From Membranipora membranacea (Eukaryota; Bryozoa; Gymnolaemata; Cheilostomatida; Membraniporidae): a DNA stretch of 64,000 nt. Where the stretch lies: contig OU612071.1 in NCBI GenBank assembly GCA_914767715.1, forward strand, positions 12,383,493-12,447,492. Reading direction: 5' to 3'. The position numbers and the translations under genes are program-made. This document shows positions 108 to 52,567 of this stretch, piece after piece (positions within the stretch are counted from its first letter, which is position 1; every line of letters begins with the position of its first letter). The notes beneath the pieces are model-generated. The model was not told the origin of the DNA. It worked only from the letters and a program-made list of their open reading frames with translations, and did not search any database.

Positions 108-3100
108 ATGCCTAGACAAGGACGAGAAAGCTCTCTCAACAAGAATAAGGTGTTAATCGCTCGGTTGACACTGCTGCTTGTATCTGGATTCATCCTTGTA
201 GGAGCGTGCTGTGGGCTTGTACTCACCCAACTGGAAGAGCTCAACATGAAGATGAGCGACATGGAAGGAAAGATTCGTCAAAATACTGACACAATCAACG
301 ACCTAGGTAAGATAATACCACAATCACAGTCCAAAGATCATCAAATACCCTCGTAGGGGAGTATTTGACTTGAATGAAGATATGTTTAGTTAACTTCATG
401 CAAGCCTGCAGCAAGTGTCAGCTAGGTGGTAGCTTTTATAGAATAATACTTGACCACTCTAGGGCGCATTTCTTCAGATCTTGTGAATGCTGTGTATTAT
501 AGTGCATTGAACGGTATTTCTTTCAAATTTAACCAATCGTCAATGCTAAAATATGTTGCAAAATTGTTTGAAGATTGTAATAATGATGATACATACATGA
601 TTTTCATTATTTCAACGTAAAAACAGGGATGAAATTGAACTCTCAACTTTGTTACATTGCAGCTCAAAATTTCATTCATTTGTGTGTTAAGTATATGCAT
701 AGTACTTGGAGTGGAAGCGCCACATCTTGGCCAAGCCATGCCAAGTTTTTCCAGGTCCAACTTGGTCCAATTCAAATTAGATTCCATTCAATCCTAAACT
801 AGGCCAACACAGGAGGTAAATACACCCAAAGGTGCTGGGGGCTTATGCAAGGGATCGTGTAAGCTCCCCCAGTGGGACATGAAGCCACAACCGATGGCAC
901 CATCTCAACTTTGGAATGGTGAGATGGCGCTATTGGTTATTTGTTGCCATACAATTCATGACACATGTGTTGTGGGTCCATTCAGTCATGCGCCATGACA
1001 AGCAACAAAGGTTTTGTTGTGTGAGCTATCAACTTAGATTTAAGAAGAAATTCATCCAGTTCATTATTAGCTTCTCATTTTCAATTGTTGTCTCTCTATG
1101 TATCACATCATGTCCCCATCATGTTAACATGATGTTAATTAATCCAGTGGTTAATAAAGTTCATAATAATAACACGCATGCTTGTAACTATGATAAATAT
1201 TAGGTTATTGTTGTCAACTTCATGAATGTTACTCAAGTAGTTAAGTGTTCTCAAACAAACAAATTTACAACAATTCCGACCAAAACTTAACAAGAACAAT
1301 TGTTTTGATTAAAGGTTGATTAAAAAATCGATGTCTTATCACTCGCCCATCCCGAGGCATGGGCAGCGAAATATTATTGCCTTATTGGCGACGCCGCAAT
1401 ATCTGCGCCAATTTGCTCTCTGTTTGCAGGCAGGTCGGAGCACACCTGGGGGACCAACCAATCCCCAGTAGAAGATGGACTGCAGTGGGATTCGAACCCA
1501 CGACCTTCAACACTTGCGTGTTGAAGTCCGGCGCTCTAACCAACTGAGCCACCTCCTACTCCTACTCTGCTGTGGACAATAGTCAGCAACGAGTTGGAAG
1601 TTTGTTGAGTTGATGCAATGACTATCATTATTATATTTATTAAAGGTGGTACAACAAACTCGCCATATGAAGGTTCGTATCTTATGAATGCTCGCATTGA
1701 TACCCTGTCCACAAAAGCGAATGATGATTATCAGATGCTACAGCGATTCGGTGAGAACCATTAACTCATATAGCTCTGCGCCTATCTCAGTTCTTAAATT
1801 CAATCATTATTGGGTAGTGTCTGTAATAACAGGGTAGTTTCAATACCAAAAAATGCAATAATGTATGGTTTAAAGTATGAAATTGCCTTTGTACATTGAA
1901 AAAACTTGGAACGCAAGGGTCTCGTAAATCACAGGTTGTGCACAAATTGATTCGAAGCAAGCTACGGGCAAGTAGCAAAATAATTGAGAACATCTGCAGG
2001 CACCACAGACCCAGTTCCATGCTTTATCTTCCTTTAACACTTTCATCTTCTTTTCCAGGGGGAACAGAACACCTTGCGAAATACCAAGGATTGTAGATAT
2101 TGCAGCCTTTTGTGAGGCACATTGCCTTGTCAAGCGTCCACTTATTTGGTTTAAGTGGCCGCGTGACAAGGCTAGAGGCTTAATAAATGAAGTTGGACAA
2201 TTAAAATTTTCAAATTGTTTTTTTTATTTGTAGAACGTTACATGAATCAGAGTTTGGCAGAAATCACGAAGCAGCACAAGGAGAGTGACAACGTATTTCA
2301 AAATCTCAGTGAGGGTTTGCTATATACCATTCCACTCCATGACATCATCAGTTACTGAATTCCATAGCAACACATTCAATATTGTCATAGTTTCATGCCA
2401 AAAGTCGACTTGGACCATTGAATAGTGCATTATTAGCAATCAAGCAGCTGTATTGTAGCAGAAAAGTTGTAAAGGTTGTCAGCCACTATAGGTCAGGTCG
2501 TCAGCGACGGTCCTACTCAATCTTTCAGGTTTATTTTCACTTCAATCAAGACGAAAGTTACTGTCAAGTGACAGCAGGGAGAATGGTGACAGGGTATAGT
2601 GATGTTGTTACCATGTTGCACATTGAAATGGCCAATTGACGGTGAGCTGATGATTCTGTTTTTTAAAGGTTACCCAACCAAACAACCAGGAGGAGACACC
2701 ACCGTTCAAGGACATCAAGGAGTGAAACATCAACTGTACCAGCAACTCGGTGAGACCTCACAAACTCATAAAATTCTGCACATATATCAGTTCTTCAATT
2801 CAATCATAATTGGGTGGTTTTACAAATTAGCAATAGATTGATGGAAACAACAAAAGCTGCAGTGGTGTATCAGAAATAATACTAAAAGTTTTCTCCAGTC
2901 TAGATAGGCTACGTTTGATTCAGTGATCCTACATTCTGGGGGGTCTTTCAATTACAATGATCATCCCATTTTCAAGCAAAAGTATCACTATTACCCCGCT
3001 TAAAATTATCGCTGATTTGACCTTTATGCAAGAATAATTTGCTCCCAAGTCGCTCACTCTGAACGTTGTAGCTCTTTCAATGACTAAGCCATTTGTGGAC

Positions 3101-6100
3101 CAGACCCTAGCGATAAGATAACAATTTTGGCTGTCTTTAATTGTAATACTCTCCTTGGTCAGTTTAATTCTATTGGTGAGCCACCTGCAAATAGGACCAT
3201 GTGCTCTCATTTATTTAAAATTAGGAGTCACCATAATTGTAAACAGTGGTAGAAGTCATTAATATACATCCTTGTATATGCCTGCGAACATGTGAAGTAG
3301 AACCAGAAGCAAGGCTGGCCCTTTAGGAGGATGTGATGTATCCTAGAAACTAGGATGGGTTCTGCATCAAATGTAGGGTTGTAACAAACTATATCCTGAT
3401 GGTGCTGATGCTGAATCATAACAATTTGAATATTTATAATTCTGAGTGGTATTTTAATATAATATAATATACAAAGGTGCATTCAAATGCCAAATTTATT
3501 TCCCTACTATACCCCGATGAGTCTTAATGGTGCTAATTCTGATATAGGAAATTTCAATACTATTTTGAGACTAGCTTCTATCTACAATGGGAATATAAGG
3601 CCATTCTCGCAATCTAATCTCATTTTCTCTGGATTGCAGCTATGTCACTCGAGAGATTTGAAACAAATATCAGTAACCAAGCGACTGAAATTGCCAATAT
3701 CAGAACGGATTTGCAAGCAGCCGATGATCGATACAAAGGTACATTCAAATTCCAAAATTATTTCCCATCTATACCCCGATAAGTCTTTATGGCGCTGGTT
3801 CTAAATAATGACAATCTCAGTATACAGTAAATTTCTCTCAAGATATTGGCAATTTCAATACTATTTTGAGACTATCTTCTATCTACAATGGGAATATAAG
3901 GCCATTCTCGCAATCTAATCTCATTTTCTCTGGATTACAGCTATGTCACTAGAGAGATTTGAAACAAAGATCAGTAACCAATCGACCGACATTGCCAATA
4001 TCAGAACGGATTTGCAAGCAGCCGACGATCGATATAAAGGTACATTCAAATGCCAAAACTATTTCCCTACTATACCCCGATAAGTCTTAATGGTGCTGAT
4101 TCTAAATAATGAAAATTTCAGTATACAGTAAATTTTTCTCAAGATATAGGCAATTTCAATACTATTTTGAGACTAGCTTCTATCTGCAATGGGAATCTAA
4201 GGCCATTCTCGCAATCTAAAACTCATTTTCTCTGGATTGCAGCTATGTCACTCGAGAGATTTGAAACAAAGATCAGCAAGCAAGCGACTGACATTGCAAA
4301 CCTCAGAGCAGATTCACAAGCAGCCGACTCTTCAATGATCGTAGACATCACATCGCTAAATGAATCTATAAATCATGAAATCTCACTTCTACATACCATG
4401 TTAGAAGGAATGGATAACGCCTCTGATAGCATGTTGTTCCACGAAGCTAAGTCACATCCTACCACACCCTCGATAGAGATGATTGACCTACTACATACCA
4501 AGGTTGAGAATATGAGCACTGCAATAGTTGAGGTTCAAGAGTTCCTCCATAATGCTACAGCTCTCATGAAATCAATCAATGAATTGGGTTCAAAGGACAG
4601 AAATCTATTATATACTCAACTAAACAACTTAGAAATTCATCTAAATGGTACAAGCCGTGATCAGCAGAATATGCGGGATCGCATCAACTCCATGTACACA
4701 CAGTTAGACAACCTGGGAAGATCCACACCTACGGCAACGGATGAAAGCTTGCAAAACTTCTCGAATAGCTTCAATCATACGCTTGAAGACATTGAATCAA
4801 AGATTGAGATGATAGCGTCAATGAATGACACGGCCTCGGCTGAGAGAAACTCCTTGTACATACAGTTTAACGACCTGGAAAAGTCAACAACAATGGCAAT
4901 GGCTGAAAACTTGCAAAACTTCTCAATTATCTCAAACCATACGCTAGAAAAATTTGAATCAAAGATGAACCAACACATCGAGATGATGGCCTCAATGAAC
5001 GATTCGGCCTCGGCTGAGAGGAACTCCTTGTACGTACAGTTCGAAAACCTGGATCAGTCCACTGCAATGGCAATGGCTGATAACTTGCAAAACGTCTCAA
5101 CCATCTTGAACCATACGCTAGAAGACATTGAATCAAAGATGAACCAACACATTGAGATGATGATGATGATGGCCTCAATGAATGATTCTGCCTCGGCTGA
5201 GATGAACTCCTTGTACATCCAGTTAAAGGACCTGGAAAGGTCCACAACAAGAGCAATGACTGAAACATCGCAAAGCATCTCAACTATCTTGAACCATACT
5301 TTGAACTATCTTGAACCATACTTAGAAAACATTGACTCAAAACTAACCCAACAATCTGCAATGATAGTATCAATGAATGGATCGCATGTACACTTCGACG
5401 ACCTGGCAACTCCTATAGTACGATCCCACTTCTGTGAGTCAATTAAGTCATTCATGCACTTGATCCCATGTTTCGAACTGAAGGCATCTAACGAGTTGTC
5501 CGGTCCTGATATGAAAGAATGGTTATTTCTCTGATGATTCTTAGGCTATACATTATATAGAGCAGCCATAGCTCACATATAGGCGCAGGTATTTCTTTCT
5601 TTTTCCAACAATTGTGGCAGGAAGAGTGTCTGTAAACCAAAACAAGTCCTTTGGTCGTTCAAAAGCTTTTTTTCATGCATTGATGGCACCAAGTAGTTCT
5701 GTGACACCCCAGGTTGCGCTTCAAAAGTGTGTCATTGGCTTATTGTATTATGCCATGATATCAAATCAATCATCTTCTAGCAGTTTATCTGGGAAAAAAC
5801 TATAATGGTAAGAAAGAGGGATGATTATCATTGTGCTCGAAATACACTTGGAACTTTGCACGTTTTTCTGCTCATGCAATGCAATCAATACTTTATTGAT
5901 AACTCATCACTGAGGTTGGGCACCTTAACTCTATTGTGCTATTCTCAGGCACTTTCCCATATGTGGCCTTTATGGCGATCTCTCATGTTGATGCTGGGAA
6001 ATTTGTTTTAATCTTCAATGTATTTTTACAACACTAAATCATCAACTTGTCAATACTACATAGGGTGAATCATTATTTAATAATAGTTATGTTTTTTAAG

Positions 6101-6987
6101 GTGGTAAATGTACCAAGGAGTCAAGCGCTTGCACCATTGGAGAGTTTAAAAAACTCACCTGCAAGAGGGGCTTTCTTAAGTCTCATGATGGCTATGGGCA
6201 AAGTAAATACTCCATTGGTTATACTAAAACATCACTGAAGAATCCGGGATTTAAAGGGCTGAAGATAACACTTCACAAGTTTGACGTTAGTTTAATATTT
6301 TCATGCATGTAGGCTTTTATGGTAGATTAATTCTTTAATGGTTCATGATTTTGGCAGGAAAATGACTAAAATTGTTCCCAACTATTCATGCATTCAAAGT
6401 TTTGACCGTTAAAATTGAATCTGTGCTACGTTTCCATGTGTTAGAAAGTAGGAGAATTTGTAGTGCAGTTCATATGGTGAACAGAGCTTCCCTGCCAAAG
6501 CACACATTAATTTGTTGTGCTCTAACCCCACAATGATTATTTGCTCGAATGGAAAATAGTGGTGTGAATTTCACCTTGATTTAATCGTAAGTGAATAAGT
6601 GTCATATTGATTTAGTTGAGTTGATTTTATTTTTTATGCATATAATTGCGTTATATTGTTACACATTCTCTTCTATAGGTAGAGCCTCCTGTAGACGGTG
6701 TCTGCAAAGACCGTCTGTTCATAGGAGTATATGGTAATCTCAGGACGTTCAGGCACTGTGGCACTGGGATTAGCGATTTAGTATTATACCTTGATGTATC
6801 AGAGGAAGGATTTGATGGTAGTAGATCAATAAATATAGAATTTCATGCTGATAGGGACTACGGTGATAGGAATGACGGCTTTATTATTGAATTCGCTTTC
6901 CAATTAATGCCTTTTACTCAATCAGCTTACCAGGCAACCATAGGTGATGTCGAAGACCATTATGATTATTATGTTTATTGGGCTTAA
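108..6987 (+). CDS. Gene A: type II membrane protein with coiled-coil stalk and CUB-like domain (9 exons)
   Basis: Predicted exons: 108-306, 1646-1750, 2234-2308, 2669-2749, 3640-3738, 3941-4039, 4243-5433, 6101-6285, 6679-6987. All have AG/GT borders; together they give 2343 bases, 780 residues plus TAA. Exons 1-7 join in phase 1; exons 8/9 join in phase 0. Residues 1-19 are a basic cytoplasmic tail, about 20-40 a membrane anchor (signal-anchor, no cleavage site evident), 41-219 short helical linker modules, 220-616 a heptad-rich stalk with many N-glycosylation sequons (NES, NHT, NDS, NFS), and 617-780 a CUB-like domain containing RHCG and a GFIIEFAFQL strand. This implies an extracellular C-terminus at the cell surface. 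The family and ligand are unknown to me; recognition or adhesion is inferred. The open frame beyond 5433 to a stop at 5532-5534 is intron read-through, since donors of the same phase sit at the equivalent point in genes B and C. Confidence 0.72.
1345..1562 (-). mobile_element. tRNA-derived SINE in intron 1 of gene A
   Basis: On the minus strand a tRNA-like head (about 1556-1477) shows an A box (TGGCTCAGTTGG) and a B box (GGTTCGAATCC), followed by a roughly 120 bp unrelated tail (about 1476-1345) ending near CTCGGGATGGGCGAG. A second copy with the same tail lies at 35,527-35,920. The tail and the second copy argue for a SINE and against a functional tRNA gene. Confidence 0.7.
2936..3153. mobile_element. 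Degenerate copy of the GGGGGGTCTTTCAATTA MITE family
   Basis: It begins with CTGGGGGGTCTTTCAATTA and carries the family's internal TTGCTCCCAAGTCGCTCACT block. The far terminal repeat is decayed (TTTAATTGTAATACTCTCC). It lies in the intron between exons 4 and 5 of gene A. Better copies are at 12,990 and 52,568. Confidence 0.55.
3479..4340 (+). repeat. Three tandem intron-exon units (about 300 bp each) in gene A
   Basis: Three successive units each contain the same intron (start GTACATTCAAA, internal TATACCCCGAT, polypyrimidine tract, GGATTGCAG or GGATTACAG) followed by an exon starting CTATGTCACT. The first two exons are 99 bp, phase 1-1, and end in the same DDRYK codons. The third fuses into the 1191 bp stalk exon. 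The right edge of the window (63,975-64,000, minus) ends inside the equivalent exon of gene C. This is direct evidence for exon duplication lengthening the stalk. Confidence 0.8.
4688..5300 (+). repeat. Stalk repeats of gene A (about 58 residues, 174 bp)
   Basis: Inside the large exon the protein repeats a unit with the order STTMAMAENLQN, a sequon such as NHTL, ESKMNQHIEMMASMND, SASAERNSLY. Three to four units are recognisable. One unit has lost the NQH segment and another has an expanded run of Met codons (atgatgatg, 5155-5170), a typical replication-slippage signature. The heptad pattern of Leu/Ile/Met predicts an oligomeric coiled coil. Confidence 0.75.
5534..6100. other. Intron between stalk and CUB exons of gene A
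   Basis: I see no exon here. The segment is shared with the gene C intron (61,990-62,686). There, the minus strand stays open for 79 codons (62,218-62,457), whereas the left copy has stops and frame changes, so it is either an old coding remnant or chance. Confidence 0.4.
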
Positions 6988-7074
6988 TACGCTGCAAATA
7001 ATTATTGTTATAATTAATTATTATCAATTCATGTGAAAAACAAATATGATGATGATGATTTTTAATTTTTTTTT

Positions 7075-7175
7075 AGTTCAATTTCAAAGTAATGCCTTTA
7101 ACTGAATCAGCTTACAATGCAACCACAGATGGTGTGGGATATTATTTGGATTATGTTTTTTTCTTTAGTATTATA
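7075..7175 (+). pseudogene. Duplicated fragment of the last CUB exon in the 3' UTR of gene A
   Basis: About 90 bp downstream of the stop, the final coding block of the CUB exon (FKVMPLTESAYNATT, compare FQLMPFTQSAYQATI in the exon itself) is repeated, preceded by a T-rich tract and AG. The same fragment is present in the right arm (about 60,800-60,890, minus). It could be an alternative last exon or a dead duplicate. Confidence 0.5.
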
Positions 7176-7267
7176 AAACTTACTATTCATGAACATTCTT
7201 TCCATGTGAAAAACCAATATTCAATTTAAACTGTCTTTAATTGTTAACTCTCCTATATCAGAAATTG

Positions 7268-7273
7268 AATAAA
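7268..7273 (+). terminator. Polyadenylation signal AATAAA of gene A
   Basis: AATAAA occurs in the context ATTGAATAAAATCT, 281 bases after the stop. The same hexamer is conserved behind gene B (26,470-26,475, minus) and gene C (60,687-60,692, minus), which supports its use. Confidence 0.6.
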
Positions 7274-7299
7274 ATCTTATTTCAAAGCTTTCACCATTT

Positions 7300-8369
7300 A
7301 TTGCTTATGATGTTAGTACACAGTTAATTCAAAGGATATAAAACTATATGGGAAGCCTTGGGGATGAAAAGACAGCTATATTATGAATGTTTATTGGGTC
7401 AGGCTTCAGAACTCAAAATTCCGTAAAATTATGAATGTAGAATGAAAGCCAAGGCTTTGCATGATGTTGTGAGCTCTCAACAAATCTTATTCCAACAACA
7501 AACAATATTGATCTGATGGGTGTAAGGACAGTCTGAGCCAATTATTGAGTAACTCTGTGTCTGTGATAAATCCTCTCTTTGATATGCCTTGTGTGGCTCT
7601 GGCGCTGGTCCAAGCGATCAATTGATTCATTTAAAGTCGAAAGTGACTGACAAAAAAGTCTAGCTCAAATCAGGGAGAATGGATATGTTTCCCTGCTCAT
7701 ATTGAAGTTTGCTGCCAGTGTAGTGGTCGTTGTTTCCCTGTTTTACAACATAAAAACTACAGCATAGCAGAAGATCCTTCAATTATGAGGTAGGCCTATC
7801 ACTCTCTTTTATCTTGTTTGCAAAGGACATCAATTTTTTTCGCAATTGCACAAGTTGTGCTGTCCACCAGGGAAAAGATATCATGATTCATACCTTGTGC
7901 TGAATCATCTGAACAATTTATAATTGCTTGCCGAATTTTCGTAGGACTAAAGAGTTAACTAGCCTCTGATGCAATAATGTTGGCTGGCTTTTCCTCCCAG
8001 CCACAGGTGTGTTTTCTACCTGGCGCTAACGGGTTTTCAAGCGTTGACAGCACCGGATTGTGGTTTCGTACAGGGACGTAGGGAGTACCCCCGAGCCCCT
8101 GGCCTATCTGGGGTTGAATTTATAACCTAATAATAAGTACAACCCGAGATCAAGCTTGATCCATTTGCTTGCGTTTAAAGTTGCATCCCTCCCTCCCACT
8201 GCAGGCAAAAATGATGGGGCTTGACGAGTAGTTGGGGGCCCACTCCAAACACATCTTGCTGTTCATGATAAGCTGCAGAACTCAATATTTGCCTTTCATT
8301 GGCCACTGAGAACGGCGGGATAGAGGCTTATGGATATTAATTTTTTTACATTGAGAAGTAGGCGGGTTT
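7300..8369. other. Intergenic part of the left arm, no confident gene
   Basis: This stretch matches the right arm at about 59,600-60,640. On the right minus strand, 60,409-60,633 is open for 74 codons and contains KLYGKPWRLEDSYIMNVYW, but the left copy has several stops in the same frame. It looks like an old decayed coding piece downstream of the CUB genes. Confidence 0.4.
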
Positions 8370-8735
8370 TTAGAAGTAGGTTGAAGTGTGATTCCAGGCT
8401 TGATGAAGAGGACTTGGGCCAGTGAATGGTATACTTGCTTGGTGTGGTGTAGAATCATGCAATATACATTCTCCTTTGTTTATTTTGTGGTACATAGCGA
8501 TATAATCTGCATATTTGACGAATAGATGGACAGATGTCATTTGTGAACACATTCCAGGGAGAAGGCCTAAGAACTGTCCCATGGTACTCCTGGAGTTATA
8601 TCCTTGAGAAAGGACATGCATCATCTGATCTTTACACAATGCTGGCAATTGTTCAGAACTCACAATCACACTTAACTTTTTAATTGATGCTCCACTACAT
8701 GAGCTGTCAGATAATAAGACTCCAGATAAAATCAT
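8370..8735 (-). CDS. Short ORF conserved in both arms, unknown
   Basis: A 121-codon frame starts MILSGVLLSDSSCSG and is also open in the right arm (59,155-59,589, plus; 144 codons). The two differ by five substitutions (M/I, S/P, Y/N, Y/N, K/E) and an in-frame eight-residue indel. Keeping the frame through an indel suggests coding, but the substitutions are not conservative and no family is recognised. A TATAG just before the ATG could be a splice acceptor. It may instead be a TE-derived piece. Confidence 0.35.
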   Translation of the reverse strand: MILSGVLLSDSSCSGASIKKLSVIVSSEQLPALCKDQMMHVLSQGYNSRSTMGQFLGLLPGMCSQMTSVHLFVKYADYIAMYHKINKGECILHDSTPHQASIPFTGPSPLHQAWNHTSTYF

Positions 8736-9714
8736 CTATACTTGCCGGTTTTGCTGAGGCGCATTTCAGGAATTGATAGCAGTTGGTGCTAACTCAACGT
8801 CATGATTATTTTTATTCGATTGCGCTCTACGAGAGCTATCATACTAAATGACCTCTTATTATAAAATGTTAATAAATATTTTACTTGTAATAAATATAGG
8901 GATAGTGATTTGTTCTTGATATATTATTCTTGTGCAAAAATTATTAAGATTTTATAACTTCAATACCACAATGCCACTGTATTGCAACATCATCACCACT
9001 TTAACTGAAAATTGAAAATGTGAGCAGAAGTGAAAAATGATTTGATAGCAATCCACTACAAAAATACGTCTAGTCTTAATTTTTACAAGTACAGACAATT
9101 CCCAACTTTAAACCTACACAATAACGCAAAGATACAAAAGTAATATCGGTCATTGATGCAATCAGAGAAAAAGCGGTATCAACAACTGAAAACGGTATAA
9201 AGAAAAATTTGATGCTGCACACCGCATATCAGCTATGAAGGAGGGAGAGAAATATCATTGACTTAAATTATTTGTCCTGATGTCGATAACCTTATAAGGC
9301 TGTCAGTCTAAGAAGAGTTACGCTGCTTGAGTATTTAGGCATTGAAGTCTGAATCGTCATAGCAATATGATGAGCAAGCTACAAAATTAACAGCAAGGTT
9401 GATATTAAGATCATCAATGTTTATCTGTAGATATAACTTGATGAAGTATGAACCAACAATTTATTTACCGACACAAGGGTTAATACTCGAGGTACCAATG
9501 TCATCATTTGACCGCATACGTGTTACTCCTGCCCTATCCGTAATGAGTTGATTCTTAACATTCATATCTCCATGTTTATGATAACAATATGTGTTTTGGC
9601 TTGAGAAGCATTGATTTCGATGTATTACCTAGTTTGCAGAACAGTACAGCCAATATAGCTTTGACACAAGTTTGTTGTCAGAGTGCTTACCTTACTGGAT
9701 CTCGTGTTTATTAT

Positions 9715-10465
9715 TGTGAATGGTATATCTTGTAACTGGTATCCATGACATGACACCCGCAGCAAACCCTAAACAAATCAAAACAGTAAATCAAGAACTA
9801 AGACATCTTTGTCTAAAGTTGCCTAGGTCAAGATGAAGTGGAAGATGATCACATCATCAAAAGTTTAACGTTAAAGGACAACCCTATATGACGGATAGAT
9901 TGGACAAAACACCTCAACTGGTCCAAACTGTTGGGGCAGCGAAACTCAACCTTGTGATTTTTCCAAACCCACCATACCAACTTATGACAATTAAATGGCT
10001 ACATAATCCCAAGCATTCTCCTCTTCTATCAAAGAAGTAGCTGAACTAAAGAGCTAAACCCTAAATATTACGCAACATACCTTTATTATTCTGTTGATGA
10101 ACAGTCGAAGCTGACAGACAGCTTTTTGCCATATCCCTAATTGAGTACATTCTCATTGTCCATCTAGTATCCAAGTGTAGGTGCAAAAAAGCATGCATGA
10201 TGTTCTGCACCAGTGATAAGCTAAGTTATATCCTCGTCAAATATGTTTTTGGATCCGAACCGCTTTGGTAGCTGATGATGGTAGCCATGGTTAGGATTCA
10301 ACAGTAGTTTGGAGAAGCTAAAACGACATAGAAAAGTTCATAGATGATATTTTTTTGAGTTTATACTATAATAATAAAAACAATGCAGCCGCAGGACGGT
10401 GAGTCCCAACAGCAGCCAATATAGGCATATCATTGAAGAGAAAAACGGGTGAGCTTGACTTGACG
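9715..10465. other. Left-arm-specific segment
   Basis: The arms stop matching near 9,715 (right 58,205) and resume near 10,465 (right 55,445). The left version is about 750 bp and the right about 2.76 kb. I see no gene or recognisable repeat in the left version. Confidence 0.5.
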
Positions 10466-10570
10466 CATGAAACTGATGTTTTATTGGCTTTGACCAGTTT
10501 ATATTCATTCTTAACGGGTGTAGTCACATACACAAAGTAATAAATTATATATATATACAAATATATATAA

Positions 10571-11860
10571 ATGAAGACTGACATCTGCTGGTTTTCTGTT
10601 TGCAGACATCTGGTGGCGAGAACAGCTCGAGGAGAGAATGCTAGTATGAGAGTTCTTCAGCCTCAGGCAACCTGCAAAGTTAAAAGTAAACATCAGTCAG
10701 ATAACGGGAGAGAAGCTAAGGGTGTGGGGAACTTTGTGGTTAACATGGATATGATGCTGTATGCGCTGCAAGACTTTCAAAAGGGACACAGGACATTGGA
10801 AACTTGCCAGGATTGTCTCATCGAGATGAGCGTAACAAGAAAGAAAGGCCTTACATGCAGCATTTCGTTAACATGCTGATCAAGAGGCTGCATCGGTTCT
10901 ACAAAGCAGCGCAGGAGAGCAGGAGGGGCAGAAGAGGGTAGCTACCAACAAACAGTTCGGACATGCTGTGCAGGATAGCTGCCTTGGCATGCACGGGGCA
11001 TATCAGCTGCTTGCATCACTAGACATGTCACTGCTGGCCCAATCAAACTGCCAAAAGCTGGCCAAGCTGGTGGACAATGAGATGACAGACATAAAAAACA
11101 GAGACCTGAATAGACTGGCAGGGGAAAAATTTAATGATAACAAACTATGTGGCCTGAGCGGGGGAGGGAGGGGGAGATTGCCATAATCCGTTGACAGCCG
11201 CTACAATTCAGTAAGGTTTGGCAATAAAGAGAAGATTGGCCTATGTGCCACACAAGCGGTAACAACTGCCATCGGACAGCGATGGGCAGGGTGCAAAGCC
11301 CTATCAGGCTTTGATGACAACGAGGCCAGAAAAGTGGACTGTTACAGTCCGACCCCTCTCACCCGGGCAACTCACAGGTTAGAGCTATAAAGAAAGTGAA
11401 TTTCAGGAAAGAGACATTCAGTTGCGCCAGGGTAAAGACAATTCACTCACTTAAGAAGTTGGTGGCAAAAGATGTCAAGTACTGTCTGAGTATTGTTGCG
11501 CAGCAGTTGTCCAAGCTGGGTTTATCAATAATCCAAGTAAATCATCTGGTCAGCACGGCCGTGGAGTGCTTCGGTGGCAATCATTAGATGTGAATTCCAG
11601 ACTGGTTGGCAGCAGCTGCTGCGGGACAGAAGAGGACAACTGGATGCTCAGTAGTTCACCGTTCCGGTCTGGGGTGTATAAACTGCAATGAAGAAGAGAA
11701 AAAAAAACTAGATGTTTTCAATATTCGTCTTCATGCCAACGCCCTTCAAGCGACATAGCTTGGATTTAGTACACAGCGCAACCAGGCATTTAACAGGGCA
11801 TTGATTAAAAATATGCTAAAGAATGTCCTATTTAGTAGCCAAGAGCAAGAACCATGAAGA
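10571..11860 (+). pseudogene. Decayed TE-like coding region
   Basis: Coding-like blocks appear in changing frames: RHLVARTARGEN, GREAKGVGNFVVNMDM, RPYMQHFVNMLIKRLHRF, LDMSLLAQSNCQKLAKLVDN, then further on RNQAFNRALIKNMLK. Frame changes and stops separate them, so no intact protein is made. The style resembles transposon-encoded proteins that are multicopy in invertebrate genomes, but I cannot assign a superfamily. The right arm carries the same decayed unit (54,290-55,345, minus) with different stops. Confidence 0.45.
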
Positions 11861-12434
11861 ACAAAGACTAAGTGTTCTGAGCTTATAAGCATTTAGTTGA
11901 CAAAAATACATTCGAAATCGGACCTTACTCATGGGCCATAGTGTTTTCCATCTTACGTCAACACGTCTGACAGCTGGAAAGATCAGATGAAGCTGATTAG
12001 CTAAAATTCTGAGCAAAACCTTGAACTCTGAAAAGTTGGCGCACCATTTTTCATACAAATGTTAAGACCAGATCATGCTACATAGCATATGTTGTTATGG
12101 CACACACAATATCTGATGGCACGGTATACTGATTAAATTTTATACTTCATTAGTACATGTTGAGTAAAACTCACTGGTTGTAGTGGTAATATTTAGAAAT
12201 AAGAAGGTCTGTTTTTCATACATTATATTTATGTGGAGATGACTCCTATTCTGACCTATGCACAACAGAGAAAAAAGTGAATAGTGCAGTGACGTCGCGT
12301 CACTGAATTAGAGAAGACACTGAGCCACTAGCGGTCGAATCTAATGTTATGAAGAAGGGCAACATTTGTGTCCAGTGACAACTCCACGTAGAAATACAAT
12401 GTTGTAAGGAAATGCAGGCTAGTCATAAATATCT

Positions 12435-12690
12435 AAACCACATTGTTGTTGATTGAAACAGACCCTAGACAAGCAAGGGCCCCTTTGACTAACATGCCTT
12501 TACTTTGCCAACGTCCAGTATCAACAACTCAATGCATCAAACGTTCGGTGTTTTGGGGCTGGTTGATACTGGACATCAGCAAATTACAGGCTTGCATGTC
12601 CATGGGGCCAATGGCACCAACCATTCCCCTTTTAATTATCTCCTCATATGGCCTGTATTGAACAAGCTTGTCAAGACAGGCTAGCTTTCT
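12435..12690. repeat. Small inverted motif GTCCAGTATCAAC / GTTGATACTGGAC
   Basis: A 13 bp perfect stem with a loop of about 38 bases lies near 12,512-12,575 and is kept in the right arm (about 53,221-53,284, one mismatch). A copy of the AAGCTTGTCAAGACAGGCTA motif follows at about 12,664. It is probably the remnant of a small transposon. Confidence 0.35.
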
Positions 12691-12989
12691 TATAGACTTG
12701 CATTGCATCATGTATTTTAAGACTTGATGTAGTGACAATAGGCACTACATTCAAAACTATAGAGTATTTTTAATTGTGTGATATACTTTTTCATCGAGTC
12801 CTCCTTGCCCTATGCTCTACTAATCATTGCCTACCTACCTTAAGTTAACCTATTTGTATTGTAAATTATCTCTCAATAGTCTCAGTGAATGTGATAGTTT
12901 TTGACTGTAGAATTTAATGACTATGTAGTTTGACCAAGATTTAATGTGTAGTGAGGCCATAAGAACAATGAGAAGGAGTCCATTTGATT

Positions 12990-13239
12990 GGGGGGTCTTT
13001 CAATTAGAAACAGCGAAAATTGCAATCTGCTCGCTCACCCAGGGCCAGTGAGTGAGCGACACCTGCTACCGCTACTAGGCTCTCGCTTTCAGCTCACTCA
13101 CTCATGATGGAACTATATACACTTTGAGTGAGCGATTTGGGAGCGATTGTGTCCATTTGAAAGACCAAGTGAGTGATAAATTTTAGCGATGTGATAGTGA
13201 TAACTTGCATCTCTCATCATTCTAATTGAAGCCCCCCTG
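12990..13239. mobile_element. MITE, GGGGGGTCTTTCAATTAGAA family
   Basis: Terminal inverted repeats GGGGGGTCTTTCAATTAGAA and TTCTAATTGAAGCCCCCC enclose about 250 bp rich in alternating GTGAGTGAGCGA and TCGCTCACTC motifs. Its right-arm partner is at 52,568-52,808. Other copies or fragments are at 2,936, 15,228, 15,944, 34,557, 49,150, 50,597, 53,576, 56,318 and 57,500. There is no coding capacity. Confidence 0.8.
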
Positions 13240-13249
13240 GTTAGACCAC

Positions 13250-14512
13250 CCAGCGGGCACATTGTATGCGGCAACATGTTTCCAATGTCGCAATTGGATT
13301 GTTTCTGTGTTGCATGGTACACGTTTAACATTCAATATCTTGTAGAGGCATAAACGGTGCATACAAAGCAACACAGTATTTTCCAATATGGTAACTGCGC
13401 AGTAACTACAGCTACTTTACTAGAGAGTAATTTGCAAGAATACTGGTATCATATGGGATAAAATGCTTCGCAATTTTGCTTGCTAACACTCCGTGTGGCT
13501 CCAAATTGTGTGGAATTCTATTTTGCTCTGTTTTATTCCATTTTCTTAAAATCAAATCTCGTCTCTAAACTGCATGGGAATGATGCGTTTATGACTGCGT
13601 AGAGGCATAAATGGTGCATACAAAGCAACACGGTTTTTCCAATATGGTAACTGCGCAGTAACTACAGCTACTTTACTAGAGAGTAATTTGCAAGAATACT
13701 GGCATCAAATTGGAAAAAATGCTTTGCAATTTGTTTGCTAACACTCTGTGTGGCTCCAAATTGTGTGCAATTCTATTTTGCACTGTTTTATTCTATTTTC
13801 TTAAAATCAAATCTAGTCTCTAAACTGCATGGGAATGATGCTTTTATGGCTGCGTAGCTGTTGAATTTGTATACATTACTCGCATTTATCTCCCCTGGTA
13901 AGCTGCTAACGTTTGGTAAGCCCTTGTGCCAACCCAACAGTGCAATATAATTATTTATATAAACCATTATTCAATAACTTTGAAACATTAATACAGGTCA
14001 GTGTTTTGAAATAGGTTGATATACAGCCAGGGTTTTAATTACCTGCATTAAGCACCGCTTAATGTTCTTCGCGAATGAAGTTGAACCAGATTGTTTCCGG
14101 ACAAACTTATAAGAGTTACACCTTGTATGACTCGATGACATACCTTGCACTAGTGGAAGCCTAATGGGCCTACTAGTCAACATCCACTGTGGACTGAATC
14201 ACTATGAGTAAAACACACCCATTAACACTAATTGATATTAAATGTAATAAATCGTAATTAAAATGAAATACATCTTAACGTATGATATATATTGCGTATA
14301 ATTTTGCTGTTATGAAAACGCATGGTTACTATATATACAAGCCTCTAGTTAGATGTGTAGCAGAGGCAATTTATATATCGTAACAACATCTACTAAAATA
14401 CACAATTCCAACATATAATAGCATGACAGATTGCCACATGAGGCAGACGTAGTTCAGCCTCTAAGGTAAACATCTTTCCAACATAGTTTAGATACAGTTG
14501 TGCCGGCTGGGC
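13250..14512. mobile_element. Left-arm element with CCCAGCGGGCA ends
   Basis: The ends CCCAGCGGGCAC and GTGCCGGCTGGG form inverted repeats. The right arm has a relative with the same ends but a different interior (51,560-52,542), inserted within about 20 bp of the same place. The interior includes two direct 257 bp repeats. No transposase is seen, so it is non-autonomous. Confidence 0.55.
13343..13857 (+). repeat. Two tandem copies of a 257 bp unit
   Basis: Both copies start GTAGAGGCATAAA and end near GGGAATGATGC. They differ at only a few positions (for example one GTAT run and one TTTT run). They are absent from the right arm, so the duplication is specific to the left element. Confidence 0.85.
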
Positions 14513-15098
14513 AAGTAATTGACTCCCTGCTTAGCAATTGTATATTATATAAAGATGATACATAAATAAGAGGATAATGAGTGAATGGATAATACTAAAC
14601 CTGCAGAGTTGAAGGTATAATAGATAAGTTCATCACTGGTATTCAGACTGAAGCTCCTGTAAGTGAGAAATGCTATTTCTTCAGATTGTCTGCTTTTCTG
14701 TTACCTGATAACAATGGATTCTATCTTCTTGTTTCATGTGAGAAGTGTAGACAACTCTGTTGAGTCACAATGAGGTCCAGGAAAATAAAATCACTAAAAC
14801 AACATTGGAGATCAATGAGCAAAAGAGGGAGCTTTGTTTCAAGCAAGGCCCTTCAAGAATCTCACTCCTATTTTATTTCAAGAGTTCTCCTAGTATTATA
14901 TAAGGCCAATGAAATGTAAATAGGAATAGCTCACCAAACCCTCAACTGGGATTCTTATACACAGGTATTTGAGAAAAGGGCTGGAGTTTAGCCATATCTT
15001 CTTTTTTTTTGGAAAAAGAAACTGTTGTTCTAACATTTTATGATTATGATTATATGATTATATGTTAATTATATGAGCAATAGTACCTATATAGAAAT

Positions 15099-16173
15099 TG
15101 TGGAGTGTTCCTATCACAGGGTTTGTCTGTTGTCATGTTGTTGTCTGTTGTGCATGTACCGTGTTCATGTATCTTTGAGTTGTCTTCTCTGTTCATACTA
15201 CTGAGAAATGACCACCATTCTACCAACCCTGGCGGTCTTTCAAGTAGAGACAGGCAAAATCGCAATCTTGTCGCTCTCTCAGTGAGTGAGCGATACCTGC
15301 TAGGGGTCTCGCTTTCAGCATTACAAACTAAAGTACAGTTATGCTGTAGTATGTTGGATAGGCCCTGGGGGCCGATGTCAGGGAGACATGCCCCAATGCA
15401 CCTATGAGGCCTTTTGTTTGATGAACAGAGGAGTACAATGGCAGGCAAAGTGTGCTTGTCTGAATAGATTTTGGATTCGTGTGATTGCATGCTGGGGCGC
15501 GTGTATGCTAGGCTCAATTCTCCACCTCCGCTACACTCTTTTATGGGTATACACAATCCAGCCGCTGCTACGATATGTAGGAACCACTGGTAAAGGGTAT
15601 TTCACAACTGTACTTTATTTTGTAATGAATCGCTCAGTCACTTGATGGAACTATATACATTCTGAGTGAGCGATTTGGGAGCGATTTTCTCTAATTGAAA
15701 CACCAAGTGAGTGTTAATTTTGAGCGATGTGATAGTGATGTGATAGTGATAACTTGCTTTAGTAAAGGATCCCTCTTTCTGATTGAAAGACCCCCCTGAC
15801 CCACTTTATGACAGAGACTGACTTGACCTGTCCTGCGGCTGTAGCCTTAAAAAGAAACACATTAGGCACATTTCTCTACTGCCTTCGACGGTGAGTGGAC
15901 TGCATTGCTATAAGCTAGCCATCCTGCTGAACCCAACCATCTTATCGCTCACTCGACTACTAGTGATCGTTACCTGCTAGGCTCTCGCTTTCATATCACT
16001 CAGTCATTGATGGGACTATATACATTGTTAGTGAGCGATTTGGGAACAAATTTGTCCAGTTGAAAGACCGAGTGAGTGATAATTTTGAGCGATTTGTTAT
16101 AATGGCAACTTGCTTTAATAAAGCAACGCTCCTTCTAATTGGGAGACCCCCTGTTGAACCCAACTTCATCACA
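15099..16173 (+). mobile_element. Old LTR with nested MITEs
   Basis: It starts TGTGGAGTG and ends CAACTTCATCACA. The first 130 bases and several internal blocks match the younger LTR at 16,475 and 17,997. A CGGTATCAGAAGTGG just after the end looks like a primer-binding site with its first base mutated. Two copies of the GGGGGGTCTTTCAATTA MITE are nested at 15,228-15,797 and 15,944-16,152, the first itself split by another MITE (15,319-15,627). The same LTR is in the right arm (49,131-50,981, minus), so it predates the arm split. Confidence 0.7.
15319..15627. mobile_element. MITE with CATTACAAAATAAAGTACAG ends, inserted in another MITE
   Basis: Terminal inverted repeats (CATTACAAACTAAAGTACAG here; the other end reads the same with one change) flank 309 bp. 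The host MITE is uninterrupted at this point in the right arm, which proves insertion after the arms separated. The right arm has its own copy in a different position (49,403-50,463). Confidence 0.75.
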
Positions 16174-16470
16174 CGGTATCAGAAGTGGTCTTTAACCTAA
16201 GTGCTAGGTGAGGATTGGTGGTGAAGGAGAGGTAAGGAGGTGAATGGATAGGAGTTAAGGTGTGATCAAAAAACTCCCTCTCCCCCAGGAGGACAATACA
16301 GACTTATTGTGGGCGTGACATAGTGTGATGTATTGGACCAAGGAGTTAGAAACATAATTGGCCTGTTATTGAATCAACCTTCATAGCATAGGCTAGTTGT
16401 GTTAGAATAATCGGCTCTCATTGTGTACATGCGACTAAACAATCACGACAACAATTCAGAGCAGAACAGA
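16174..16470. other. Leader-like segment after the old LTR
   Basis: It is shared by both arms (right 48,850-49,130). There is no ORF. It is probably the 5' internal leader of the old LTR element plus flanking DNA. Confidence 0.4.
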
Positions 16471-16474
16471 TCAT

Positions 16475-18243
16475 TGTGGAGTAGTCCTATCATAAGGTTT
16501 GTTGTCATGTTGTCATACATGTACTTTGTACATGTATCTTGGAGTTGTCCTCTCTGTACATACTAAGGAGTTATCATCAGCTGCCCTGACCTATATATGA
16601 CAGAGACTGACTTGACCGTGACCTTCATTGAAGAGACACACATGAGTACTTGTCTACTGACTTTCATGGTGAGTGGACTGCTTTATATCTGGTGTATGGG
16701 CAGTGATGCTCGTGAAGTAGTGTCATCGCTTGGTGTTGACTTGTTTTCCACATCTTTGGAGTTCTTAGATGTGTGGAACTTGTTGAGAGAACACTTTGAG
16801 CATGATGAGTCTGAGTATGTTAAGTTGGACAAAGTTGTTACCTGTCAACAACTTGACAATGAAGATGAACGCGCTTATCTTCTGCGTGTTGAAGGACTGA
16901 GTAGGCAATGTGATTTCTCCGGTGGCAATGTCAGGGAGAGATTTGCATTGTTGATCGCAGTAAGAGGTTTGCGTAACTCAAAATTGAAGTTTGAGATGAT
17001 GGCTGATGATGAGTTGAACTGGGTCAAGATCAACAAAGTTTTAAGGGCAAGACTAGCTGCGCAAGAGTCTTTGAATGCCTTAAATAGATCAGACCCGACT
17101 TATGCGCTGTCAGAGAGTAAACAGGTCCCTGCTAAAATACCTGTAAAAGTTGAAGTACACGCTGAGTCTAGTGTAGTTCGTGATCCAATCAATGTTGTAC
17201 CAAATGTTACTGTTATACAGGCGCATGTTGGTGAAGTGAAGTGTTGTCCTCACCGAGAGAGAAGTGATGAGAGTAGTGTAAATAATACTTATCATGATGC
17301 TTATAACCATTCTAATCGAGGTTCTGACAACAAGAGATTTTGTAGTGACAACCATCGTTATAATGGTGATGGTGGGAGTGATCATGATGATTACCCTTCA
17401 CCTGACCGTGAAAGGAGGTATGTAAGTCATAGTAGTAGTCAGCATTCTGGCTGTTATATATGTCATAAAAATGATCATATTGCGCGTTACTGTCCTGAAG
17501 GCGGGTGTTTCAGATGTCAAAGGATGTCACATCACCAGCAGGATTGTACTGATGTTTATAGATGTAGGTTTTGTTTGCGTGAAGGCGTCTCAGCAAGAGA
17601 TTGCAGTTGTAGAGTAAATGGGTGCTCAGACCAGAGGTACAAAGAGCGAACTAAAAGACAGTCATGTGATGATCGCTCTCCACCTAGGCAAAGCTCAGGT
17701 AGTAGTGATAGTAATTGGCGGAGATAACTTCCCTCTGTAAATTCTACCCTAGTGAAGAGCTGTTGTCACCTTGTAAGTAAAAATACTTGTTTTAAGTTGA
17801 CATCCTATCCGCTTTTCGTTATTGCTTGTGTGGTTGCTGACATTTGTCGGTAGTCCCCGTAGTTGTGTGCTAACCCTGATCGTGGGCCACAGAGTATGAG
17901 TAAACATCCCATTCTCAAAGAAAGGGCATATGAAGTCTCTCAACCCTGTTAGGGTTATAGAGTATGTGTCAAAAAACCCTTATAATAGTAAGGTCATGTG
18001 GAGTAGTCCTATCATAAGGATTGTTGTCATGTTGTCATACATGTACTTTGTACATGTATCTTGGAGTTGTCCTCTCTGTACATACTAAGGAGTTATCATC
18101 AGCTGCCCTGACCTATATATGACAGAGACTGACTTGAGCGTGACCTTGATTGAAGAGACACACATGAGTACTTGTCTACTGACTTTCATGGTGAGTGGAC
18201 TGCTTTATATCTTGCCATCCTGATAGAACCCAACTTCGCAACA
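16475..18243 (+). mobile_element. Young, internally deleted LTR retrotransposon with ATCAT target duplication
   Basis: The element runs from TGTGGAG to CGCAACA (TG...CA ends) and is flanked by ATCAT at 16,470-16,474 and 18,244-18,248. The right arm shows the empty site with a single ATCAT. The 3' LTR (17,997-18,243, 247 bp) is complete. The 5' LTR is complete only to 16,690, where it jumps directly into gag, so the LTR end, primer site and leader are missing. No protease, reverse transcriptase or integrase lies between gag and the 3' LTR. This is a non-autonomous deletion derivative of what is probably a Ty3/Gypsy-like element. Confidence 0.85.
16597..17727 (+). CDS. Gag-like protein with CCHC zinc knuckles
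   Basis: 376 codons. The first ~31 codons are read from the truncated 5' LTR, so the N-terminus is an accidental fusion made by the deletion. Residues ~50-165 resemble a retrotransposon Gag capsid region (helical, with DNEDERAYLLRVEGL). The C-terminal third has two canonical zinc knuckles, CYICHKNDHIARYC and CFRCQRMSHHQQDC (C-x2-C-x4-H-x4-C), and a third with the His replaced by Val (CRFCLREGVSARDC). It is followed by an Arg/Ser-rich tail. Gag packages element RNA in the cytoplasm; this copy could at best be mobilised by a relative. Confidence 0.8.
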   Translation: MTETDLTVTFIEETHMSTCLLTFMVSGLLYIWCMGSDAREVVSSLGVDLFSTSLEFLDVWNLLREHFEHDESEYVKLDKVVTCQQLDNEDERAYLLRVEGLSRQCDFSGGNVRERFALLIAVRGLRNSKLKFEMMADDELNWVKINKVLRARLAAQESLNALNRSDPTYALSESKQVPAKIPVKVEVHAESSVVRDPINVVPNVTVIQAHVGEVKCCPHRERSDESSVNNTYHDAYNHSNRGSDNKRFCSDNHRYNGDGGSDHDDYPSPDRERRYVSHSSSQHSGCYICHKNDHIARYCPEGGCFRCQRMSHHQQDCTDVYRCRFCLREGVSARDCSCRVNGCSDQRYKERTKRQSCDDRSPPRQSSGSSDSNWRR

Positions 18244-18305
18244 ATCATGTTCTAGGATTATAGAGGGGGAGTAACTGTATTTGACTACTGCTGTCTCTAA
18301 ATTTG

Positions 18306-18615
18306 GTGCTAAAAATATTGAACTGGTCTGGTTGATTGTTAATTTTTTTCCCGTTTTCAGAGACACTCTTATTTGACTGACATTCATGCAACACCCTGTA
18401 TAAGCCTGCATCACTTGTGTTGAATTATTAATGTGTTTTCATATCTTATATCACATTAAAACAGCATGGTGTCCCTAAATGCGCCATTTGATCTTGCCCA
18501 AGATCCAAGCTGGAAGATATTCGATTCAGTGCTAAAAATATTGAACCTATAGTATAGTTCACCTCTGATTCTTTCTGGTTTTCAGAGACACTCTCATTTG
18601 ACTGACATAACTCAA
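18306..18615 (+). repeat. Two direct repeats with splice-acceptor-like ends
   Basis: GTGCTAAAAATATTGAAC followed by TTTTCAGAGACACTCT and ATTTGACTGACAT occurs twice (18,306-18,385 and 18,530-18,612) and is kept in the right arm (48,480-48,780). It could be a duplicated intron end/exon start, but the frames behind it close within about 20 codons. Confidence 0.35.
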
Positions 18616-18961
18616 TTTGACAAAAACTTCAGGCCATGTTAGGAACAAATGAATAACAGTATGACAGGAAGATTTTAGTGAGTCATTTAATGTTGTTTGC
18701 CATGTCTGATACTCCTGCAACAGGCTGGTATACATTTATATCCCGGACATTCAAAGGATGATATGTAGGCTTGTTGGGGGACTGGATTCAGGGGACTTGT
18801 ATAACAATCATAATAAATGCTTATTACTGAAGAAACTGCAATCCTCCAAACAGTTTTAATTTGCCAATGTGATTTTATTCGATCATTCCATAGAAATTGT
18901 TCTGCCTTCGGATGACTCAAAAGCACAAAAATACAGAGTTTATTGTTTTAACATTCCACAG

Positions 18962-19144
18962 GCCACTGGTACTGGAATCCCATTACCAACAAGTACGCCC
19001 AAAACAAAAGAGTAGCCTGTGATGAGGCTAGTGTATCGTATGCATACGTCAGAGAAAATAATCATCAGTGTGAAATATCAACAAGGATAGCAAGCATATT
19101 TGGCGGAAGGAGGTGCGGGGTGTTTCAATCTGCTCGCTTCTCAG
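18962..19144 (+). CDS. Isolated phase 1-1 exon, unidentified module
   Basis: The borders are TTCCACAG before and GGTAACA after; 183 bp, open, phase 1 at both ends. It encodes HWYWNPITNKYAQNKR, a Cys-containing middle (RVACDEASVS, NNHQCEIS) and IASIFGGRR. The right arm keeps an open exon in the same phase (47,950-48,120, minus; 171 bp), shorter by four codons in frame. Maintenance of frame and phase in both arms supports a real extracellular-type exon. I do not recognise the domain or find adjoining exons. Confidence 0.45.
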
Positions 19145-19741
19145 GTAACATCAAAGTTCAAAACTGCCTCGGTTAATCACACAGCAATAATGCTGAATGA
19201 CTTCATTTTGTTATTTTCAATTGCAGATGTGAATAATTGATGCCAACAATGAGGAAAAAACACTTGCTATAAAGGGTCTGAGGGAGATGAACCTAGAAAG
19301 ATAGCTATATCATTGCATGGAGCAGCAAAGGTAGATGAACTGACGGCTTACAAGGACACAACTTAATTCAAATAGTAAAACACTTCAATATAAGCACTCT
19401 ATCTACAATGTTGGATTGTGATGAACCAAACACACTCATTTAGGTAGGTACCAGCAGGGTTGCCAGTGCAGCCTGATGGGTAATCTTCTGCGGCTTATTT
19501 TGGCCTTATGCCTGTACAAATTATCACATCATATTAATTTTGATTCCTGTTTTTGAGTTGGATAATCTGGTAGGCGTAGTAGCGCTCTGCAACAAAAATA
19601 TTTATTTTGAAATGGTGGGCATTCTGTATTATGCATGTAGCTATACTTCCCAAACCATGCTACACAAAATTATCATTTTTCAAGTACTTTATTTTGAAAA
19701 TAACCGGAACCTCTGGATGTTGAAATTGTAACATTGTCATT

Positions 19742-20450
19742 TTGAATGAGAAAGGCAGATTTGTATCAAACAGCACTCATGTTACAAGTGCTCCTGCCTT
19801 TTGGCTGATATGCCCGCGGTTGTCCCTCATTTCACAAGCATTTGCGAGAATTTTCCTTTTAGCACCCCTCCCGCGCCCAATTGTTCTCTGGCCGAAACCA
19901 GGCGACGTTATTGAGGTAAAGTAGCAGCGCTGGTGAACTTTCATAAAACCTATGTTGTTGGATAGGTAATTAGAAACTAATGAGTGAACAAAAAAATCTT
20001 ATTGCAAATTTAATCATTTATTACAATTACTACGATTGCTGTTACTACTAGCTTGATGACTCGGTAGGGCGTATTGAGTGGACTCTTTAGCTAGCTGAAG
20101 TTTTTGTACATCGGGCCAAATTTATATCGATTGCCTCCTAGTCACAAATTCAAGTTACTCGTATTTCTCTGTCTGCAATTAAGCTCTTCCCCTGGTAATG
20201 GTGGGAAATTTCTATATTAGCATGCAAACCCATTGGTGTATGCAAGGGAACAGATCTGGTGAAGCTTTACGCAAGCACGATGCAGCCTTTGCTTTCTCTA
20301 TATCCCTATTCTATTCATTTTGCAGGTCATCCTACAAGATCATACAAAAAGTAAGGGACCGCGGAGACATTTTAATAAAATGATCCGATTCCGAGAGAAA
20401 GAAAGCTCAAGTTGAAGCGGCAAAACTGGTAAGTGTAAACAAGTGATGAA
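19742..20450 (+). other. Possible decayed exons upstream of ESS2
   Basis: Two coding-like pieces occur: 19,742-19,918, ending PKPGDVIEV before GTAAAG, and about 20,326-20,428 after TTTTGCAG, ending before GTAAGTG. In the right arm the first has an in-frame stop and the second reads SNGQRRHFDKMMRFGE before a stop. The left copy of the second has an A-run length change. They may be remains of an unidentified gene. Confidence 0.25.
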
Positions 20451-44237: not shown

Positions 44238-44324
44238 ATTTAAAATTATAAATCTATAGCTACGACCTTAGAAGGATGTACAAATACCTGAGTGAGTTAA
44301 CAATTTTACTACATGACATTATGT

Positions 44325-52542: not shown

Positions 52543-52567
52543 AGGAGTCAATTACTTTGTCTAACCA

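Follow-up and report, generated by a model that had tools for sequence, protein, structure and literature searches.

The locus and its gene models

Three genes of one family lie in the window, the whole 64,000-base stretch of Membranipora membranacea DNA that was analysed (C7 12,383,493-12,447,492, in an animal genome of 339,339,785 bases and 18 contigs). The DNA is animal DNA with spliced genes. Gene A occupies the left end, gene B lies between, and gene C stands at the right end with its 5′ part outside the window. The exons and the one intron considered here are as follows.

108..306, + strand: gene A exon 1, cytoplasmic tail and transmembrane helix (by hydropathy), 94-98% identical in 10 other array genes
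1646..1750, + strand: gene A exon 2, stalk, phase 1-1, unaligned in three of the paralogues compared
2234..2308, + strand: gene A exon 3, stalk
2669..2749, + strand: gene A exon 4, stalk
3640..3738, + strand: gene A exon 5, stalk repeat
3941..4039, + strand: gene A exon 6, stalk repeat
4243..5433, + strand: gene A exon 7, long coiled-coil stalk, predicted from helical periodicity
6101..6285, + strand: gene A exon 8, first half of the CUB head, with a variable patch
6286..6678, + strand: gene A intron 8, where paralogues are more alike than in the exons; the switch point of paralogue L020 lies in the same intron
6679..6987, + strand: gene A exon 9, second half of the CUB head, with two hypervariable patches and a variable tail
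39000..39201, - strand: gene B exon 1, tail and transmembrane helix (boundaries by eye)
34958..35062, - strand: gene B stalk exon, the exon 4 equivalent
29575..31500, - strand: gene B long stalk exon, with 50-residue repeats
29191..29235, - strand: gene B small stalk exon
27997..28184, - strand: gene B first CUB exon
26827..27126, - strand: gene B last CUB exon (Pfam CUB at 29.2 bits over both CUB exons)
62687..63769, - strand: gene C long stalk exon
61799..61989, - strand: gene C first CUB exon
60921..61199, - strand: gene C last CUB exon

The nine exons of gene A encode 780 residues with no internal stop, and the sequence predicts, in order, a short tail, a membrane helix, a coiled-coil stalk and a C-terminal CUB head. 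The tail has 14 residues and no tyrosine, so that no signal of the ITIM/ITAM type is visible; the hydropathy maximum reaches 2.38 from residue 20. Twenty N-glycosylation sequons lie N-terminal to the head, and the helical periodicity of the stalk exceeds that of 300 of 300 shuffles. With anchor, stalk and head all found, gene A is predicted to encode a type II membrane receptor with a coiled-coil stalk. Tandem repeats are present in stalk exons at window positions 29701-30434 and 4686-5305, with a length of about 50 residues in B and, judged by eye, of 50-58 residues in A and C; their number differs between genes, and stalk length varies as a result.

The Pfam cut-off for CUB (PF00431) is passed by gene B only (29.2 against 21.4 bits), one of the three heads matches CUB in a scan at E up to 10, and A and C are assigned to CUB because they are homologous to B. 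Protein identity over the CUB head is 44% between A and B, 40% between C and B, and 60% (90/151) between A and C. Sushi domains are absent from the Pfam matches of the three heads and of the A stalk. A protein homologue search with residues 600-780 of A returned 113 candidates, all with E above 1, and one with the last exon alone returned no candidate, both in a library that possibly lacks this animal. Neither gene A nor a three-sequence profile found anything below E 0.05 among solved structures; the best CUB matches, to C1r (E 0.098) and to neuropilin-2 (E 0.065, with B as query), were used solely for residue mapping. A structure predicted for the last exon of B with the A and C alignment had a mean pLDDT of 55 and was left unused.

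A paralogue array on C7

Genome searches with the A and B heads place the window inside an array of about 0.88 Mb on C7 holding 31 paralogues, a count that is a lower bound (at least 31 genes). Their first CUB exons run from 11.607 to 12.476 Mb, 27 genes on one strand and 4 on the other, with a spacing of 21-36 kb except for 53 kb at the left edge. Family copies off the array are L010 on C1, L029 (a first exon) on C6 and the remote L037 on C8. Every array gene (31/31) has a membrane-exon match at most 14 kb upstream on the same strand, which in L032 is split into two pieces 92-93% identical to exon 1 of gene A; the 5′ parts of array genes were taken from 12 loci, about 10 kb each. Both CUB exons are open in 29 of the 31 genes, and open with canonical splice sites in 28. 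L036 has open CUB exons and has lost the GT donor 3′ of the first of them, L014 lacks the 5′ part of its last CUB exon, and L028 lacks part of its first. Complete heads number 30, 29 from the array plus that of L010, and amount to 25 distinct proteins, composed from 16 distinct first CUB exons and 22 distinct last CUB exons.

Further matches were recorded elsewhere. A partial exon 1 between L022 and L023 (C7:12104174-12104299), 83% identical to that of A over 42 residues, has no CUB exons of its own among the genome-search matches. Contig C2 holds seven matches to the membrane exon, six of them at 6.21-6.43 Mb (including L050 and L051); in the 10-kb stretches of L050 and L051, exon 1 is repeated beside retroelement-like frames, with no CUB exon better than E 0.4. 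Weak matches to single CUB exons form loose groups on C8 (8.9-10.8 and 13.8 Mb) and on C3 (9.98-10.45 Mb), which are perhaps remote relatives of the family.

The window itself is a large imperfect inverted duplication, or palindrome, with two arms.

4015..23985, + strand: left arm of the inverted duplication, aligning collinearly with the right arm in pieces of 74.6-95.5% identity that are separated by unaligned gaps
40465..63999, - strand: right arm of the inverted duplication, with gene C

As the 5′ part of gene C falls outside the window, the left arm begins within gene A. An assembly artefact, in which haplotypes or chimeric reads appear as an array or the palindrome is a spurious inverted repeat, would sit well with the palindromic layout, with the single CUB protein shared by L031-L035 and with the identical intron 8 of L016, L017 and L019. 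We regard it as highly improbable: many units differ by 2-50%, the spacing between them ranges over 21-36 kb and is 53 kb in one case, and the two arms differ by 4.5-25% where they align and contain stretches unique to one of them.

Divergence along genes A and C

The splice sites of the CUB exons of A and C match and their frames are open, and comparison of the two genes bears out the main observation of a preliminary description of this DNA, namely in-frame hypervariable patches in genuine CUB exons at the coordinates it had given. Intron 8 is 0.88 identical over 392 aligned bases (K2P 0.13), and is longer in C by 207 bases; its last 210 bases are 0.895 identical, so that the high identity claimed for this segment holds at a lower figure than the 92% given. 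The first CUB exon (0.843 identical) has, as described, similar flanks (0.88-0.90) around a differing middle (0.72), with length changes of 6 bases in total. The last CUB exon is 0.675 identical (K2P 0.43), or 0.65 by codon alignment, and it also agrees with the description in keeping its core, from HCG to DVS (0.91), between diverged segments before HCG (0.52) and after DVS (0.59). The proposal that exons diverge more than introns is thus upheld for the last exon (65-68% identity, against 88% in intron 8), as it is in other pairs; the overall protein identity of 40-50% was an underestimate, given the 60% measured over the CUB head.

On alignable bases along the genes, A and C differ by 3-4% over the 5′ flank, exon 1 and the beginning of intron 1, by 3-5% across exon 3 to exon 4, and by 9-17% in the remaining exons and introns as far as intron 8 (10-16% over the stretch that runs from intron 7 through intron 8). 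Divergence reaches 27% on the alignable sites of exon 9 (35% by codon alignment), and falls to 6-7% in the next kilobase 3′ of the gene and to 4-6.5% further on. Being flanked on both sides by lower divergence, the last exon is a local peak.

Codon models give dS 0.25 and dN 0.135 for exon 7 of this pair, and dS 0.23 and dN 0.10 for the conserved CUB parts. The first-exon patch (15 codons) has dS 0 and dN 0.63. In the two last-exon patches dS is about 1.5 and dN 0.85, an omega of 0.56 that is not different from 1. The silent sites of these patches are thus either saturated or far older than the introns, which would account for the low omega. Taken alone, the A-C pair is consistent with old patches set as a mosaic into a homogenised background. 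Positive selection as the whole cause of the A-C contrast was considered and rejected, the silent sites of the patches being too diverged.

Exchange between array genes

Several array genes combine parts of different paralogues, which supports the earlier suggestion of gene conversion. L020 joins a first CUB exon of L021 type to a last exon of L007 type, tracking L021 for 35 consecutive informative sites, which cover most of the first CUB exon, and L007 for 74, which extend from late intron 8 over most of the last exon. L019 shares intron 8 and the last exon with L016 (0% and 0.4% apart) and has a different upstream part; L025 passes from L026-like to L015-like shortly 3′ of the stop codon, L017 from L016-like to L021-like within the 3′ flank, and L015 alternates patchily between L016-like and L025-like. 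For each of these five genes the runs against its two parents are fewer than in any of 5000 shuffles, with parents picked by the analyst and with runs that may also mirror uneven rates along the gene. Gene A was likewise tried as a mosaic of C and L007 types and rejected, as few runs occurring in 487 of 5000 shuffles.

The 5′ ends point the same way. Exon 1 falls into two main classes, 92-100% (class I) and 55-61% (class II) identical to exon 1 of A, and the C-type last exon occurs with both, in L022, L023 and L024 (gene C) with class I and in L021 with class II. L021 and L024 have identical last exons and introns 8 that are 0.5% apart, with exon 1 of different classes. Conversely, A and the L034 gene, both of class I, are 1% apart in exon 1 and 3.5% apart at the start of intron 1, and their last exons yield no blastn alignment. 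These chimeric genes support the exchange of N-termini and of CUB exons between array genes, as read from their sequences.

Selection in younger paralogues

Paralogues closer to each other than A is to C allow the patches to be compared at lower silent divergence. Between gene C (L024) and each of L016, L015 and L025, and between L007 and L010, introns are 2-3.4% and last exons 10-17% apart. In L024-L016, 16 of 595 bases of intron 8 differ (2.7%), set beside 22.5 changes at 99.4 nonsynonymous sites and 2.5 at 32.6 synonymous sites in the two last-exon patches (P1 and P2 together); L007-L010 behaves in the same way. For L024-L015, P2 has 12.5/44.8 nonsynonymous and 1.5/15.2 synonymous changes, with 12/598 in the intron. 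L015-L025 also has an amino-acid excess in the patches, but its silent change too is above that of the intron (p=0.003). The last-exon patches of L001-L002, L011-L013 and L019-L027 show no excess over the intron, and L019-L027 shows one in the first-exon patch (11.5/35.0 against 20/533 in the intron, p=6e-8).

The six disjoint pairs L024-L016, L007-L010, L015-L025, L001-L002, L011-L013 and L019-L027, picked by the analyst within subfamilies, were also treated together, and amino-acid change in the patches exceeds intron change in three of them. Pooled, nonsynonymous change in the patches (78.5/616) is above intron change (99/3319, p=2e-20) and above synonymous change in the same patches (10.5/194, p=0.002), the latter showing no difference from the intron (p=0.13); nonsynonymous change in the cores is 7/462. 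Within the patches of the three pairs with an excess, nonsynonymous against synonymous change gives p 0.06, 0.17 and 0.046.

Codon models on exon trees of three nested sets, with patches delimited from A and C ahead of testing, estimate omega for P1 and P2 at 2.1 over 16 distinct sequences (p=0.0027; core 0.31), at 3.0 over 13 sequences without the A-type genes (p=2e-4; core 0.31) and at 4.1 over 8 C-type sequences (p=4e-4; core 0.44, not significantly below 1), the p values being raw over several partitions tried and the models assuming a single tree, an assumption that recombination breaks. The estimate is weaker over all 30 genes (23 distinct sequences; omega 1.45, p=0.049; core 0.35). It is highest for P2 in the C group (14.9, p=0.001), where there are no indels and the value is therefore independent of gaps. 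Tests of the first-exon patch are weak in the ingroups (p 0.08, 0.44 and 0.26), with p 0.015 over all 30.

The last-exon patches of the younger paralogues show the signature of positive selection (omega above 1, cores below 1), and they are putatively exposed. The diversifying selection put forward in the preliminary description is supported for the last-exon patches when other paralogues are brought in (omega 2.1-4.1, cores 0.31-0.44), with weak signal in the first-exon patch. It does not extend to the A-C pair, for which that description had itself counted a dN/dS below 1 in the patches against its reading, and whose last-exon patches gave 0.56 with dS about 1.5.

The same data bear on an account without positive selection, in which the head exons are old and loosely constrained, and in which gene conversion has recently homogenised introns and flanks, exon divergence and indels having blocked pairing. 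It would draw on the near-saturated silent sites of the A-C last-exon patches (synonymous 0.53-0.55, against 0.16 in the intron), on the raised silent change of P1 in L025 (6.0/17.5 against L024), on the L015-L025 patches (p=0.003 above) and on the support for mosaic exchange. Against this account, patch silent change is no different from intron change in L024-L016 and L007-L010, with amino-acid change 8 and 5 times higher; P2 of L024-L015 has its changes concentrated at nonsynonymous sites (the 12.5/44.8 and 1.5/15.2 given above); and an omega above 1 is not expected from relaxed constraint alone. We consider it improbable.

Position of the patches on the CUB domain

Gene B aligns to the CUB domain of neuropilin-2 over residues 23-127 (a weak match, E 0.065). 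On this weak map, P1 covers the equivalents of C1s Glu45 to Asp53 and P2 corresponds to the Asp98-Ser100 region, where we take C1s and neuropilin residue numbering to be equivalent. A study of C1s describes Glu45, Asp98 and Ser100 as contacts of a lysine ligand and Asp53 as part of the calcium site (PMC4222235). The Asp53 equivalent is D in all 22 distinct last exons. The Glu45 equivalent varies across the family (E, N, K, A, Q), as does that of Asp98 (D, E, F, K, L, N, V), and the residues beside these two are among the most variable of the family. By the same weak neuropilin-2 alignment (E 0.065) and the same equation of numbering, the Glu/Asp/Asp triad that marks calcium-binding CUB domains (cbCUB) would be complete in A-type and L031-type copies, and by that mapping Glu45 and Asp98 equivalents are both replaced in the C, L007, L016 and L025 types. 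The patches thus appear to be located on the ligand and calcium edge of the CUB domain, and a hypervariable face may have arisen here from an edge used for calcium-dependent binding.

Interpretation and known systems

The array is probably best explained as a tandem family of type II membrane proteins that diversifies its heads for recognition, through selection on patches and exchange across the array. In each protein a cytoplasmic tail, tyrosine-free in A, would be followed by a membrane helix, by a long coiled-coil stalk with many N-glycosylation sequons and by one CUB head at the C-terminus. Positive selection would fix changes in patches along one side of the CUB domain, the strands between them staying conserved. 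Array genes would keep their 5′ ends, introns and flanks alike through unequal crossing-over or gene conversion with one another, and exchange would move CUB exons, singly or together, onto other backbones; the outcome would be new combinations of head patch and backbone on a uniform scaffold. The patches presumably bind partners, the protein would stand at the cell surface as an oligomer, and it may serve non-self recognition, of microbe, symbiont, conspecific tissue or gamete. Recognition of varying partners is the most likely role, and on general grounds only, immune or symbiont recognition is somewhat more likely than allorecognition or gamete recognition.

A more specific version, which we hold to be doubtful, sees in the array a self/non-self recognition complex not described so far: the ligand edge of CUB, which depends on calcium, would have become hypervariable, and intron-mediated exchange would deal head halves and N-termini among 31 linked genes, producing haplotype-specific repertoires.

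Two particular roles were weighed beside it, and both seem unlikely. As a gamete-recognition system, the proteins would be sperm or egg-coat receptors diversifying by sexual conflict or self-sterility; positive selection, exchange and many paralogues would fit, and one account places CUB domains in the sea-urchin egg bindin receptor EBR1 and in gamete proteases of ascidians, whose sperm carry type II membrane Tast proteins (PMC9265791), but all of these have other architectures. As an allorecognition complex, heads would bind each other between colonies or tissues. The dense array, the hypervariable heads and the chimeras are compatible with this role, and a report on fester, of the FuHC histocompatibility locus of Botryllus, likewise gives omega above 1 for a minority of codons (15-27), with most of the protein under purifying selection (PMC3549757).

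Compared with other families, the proteins outlined under the probable reading of a diversifying recognition family are close in layout to class A scavenger receptors such as MARCO and to C-type-lectin NK receptors, which share the short tail, membrane helix, coiled-coil stalk and C-terminal recognition domain. Clusters of the Ly49 type are also tandem and diversify by exchange. The present family departs from scavenger and NK receptors in carrying a CUB head where they have SRCR, collagen or lectin, and in the tail of A, which has no tyrosine. The head of fester consists of sushi repeats, so that head type differs there too, and the role of fester comes from experiment, whereas here it would follow by inference. 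In venom multigene families, exons of tandem paralogues diverge faster than introns, as here, but the protein of this family is predicted to be membrane-anchored and stalked, not a small secreted toxin. The 185/333 genes of sea urchin are closely linked and similar, with diversification ascribed to gene conversion and recombination; they are small two-exon genes built as mosaics of elements, with an intron more diverse than the exons (PMC1988830). Gene A, by contrast, has nine exons, and here exons diverge more than introns. C1r/C1s and neuropilin have the CUB domain in common with the family by sequence, and on the weak map above the patches coincide with the ligand-binding Glu45-Asp53-Asp98 edge of C1s; the differences are the single stalked head and the hypervariable equivalents of Glu45 and Asp98, which many copies have replaced.

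Searches of open-access papers found no such CUB family described by title or abstract. If confirmed, a CUB-headed stalk receptor would join the invertebrate families that diversify by positive selection and gene exchange, and the array would offer a clear case of paralogue introns serving as a neutral yardstick beside selected exons. Since the patches predict partner-binding residues, ligand tests become direct.

Other elements in the window

Direct repeats of 223 bp, 97.8% identical, lie in the stretch 16468-18212 and flank an open frame (16567-17727) whose cysteine-histidine motifs resemble zinc knuckles and which matched no Pfam family at E up to 1. The corresponding position of the C arm lacks this stretch, which from its sequence looks like a gag-only LTR element. 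In the left arm, an exon at 23217-23402 resembles the nuclear protein Es2 (PF09751, E 0.012, below the cut-off), and its duplicated counterpart lies in the right arm at about 41000-43200.
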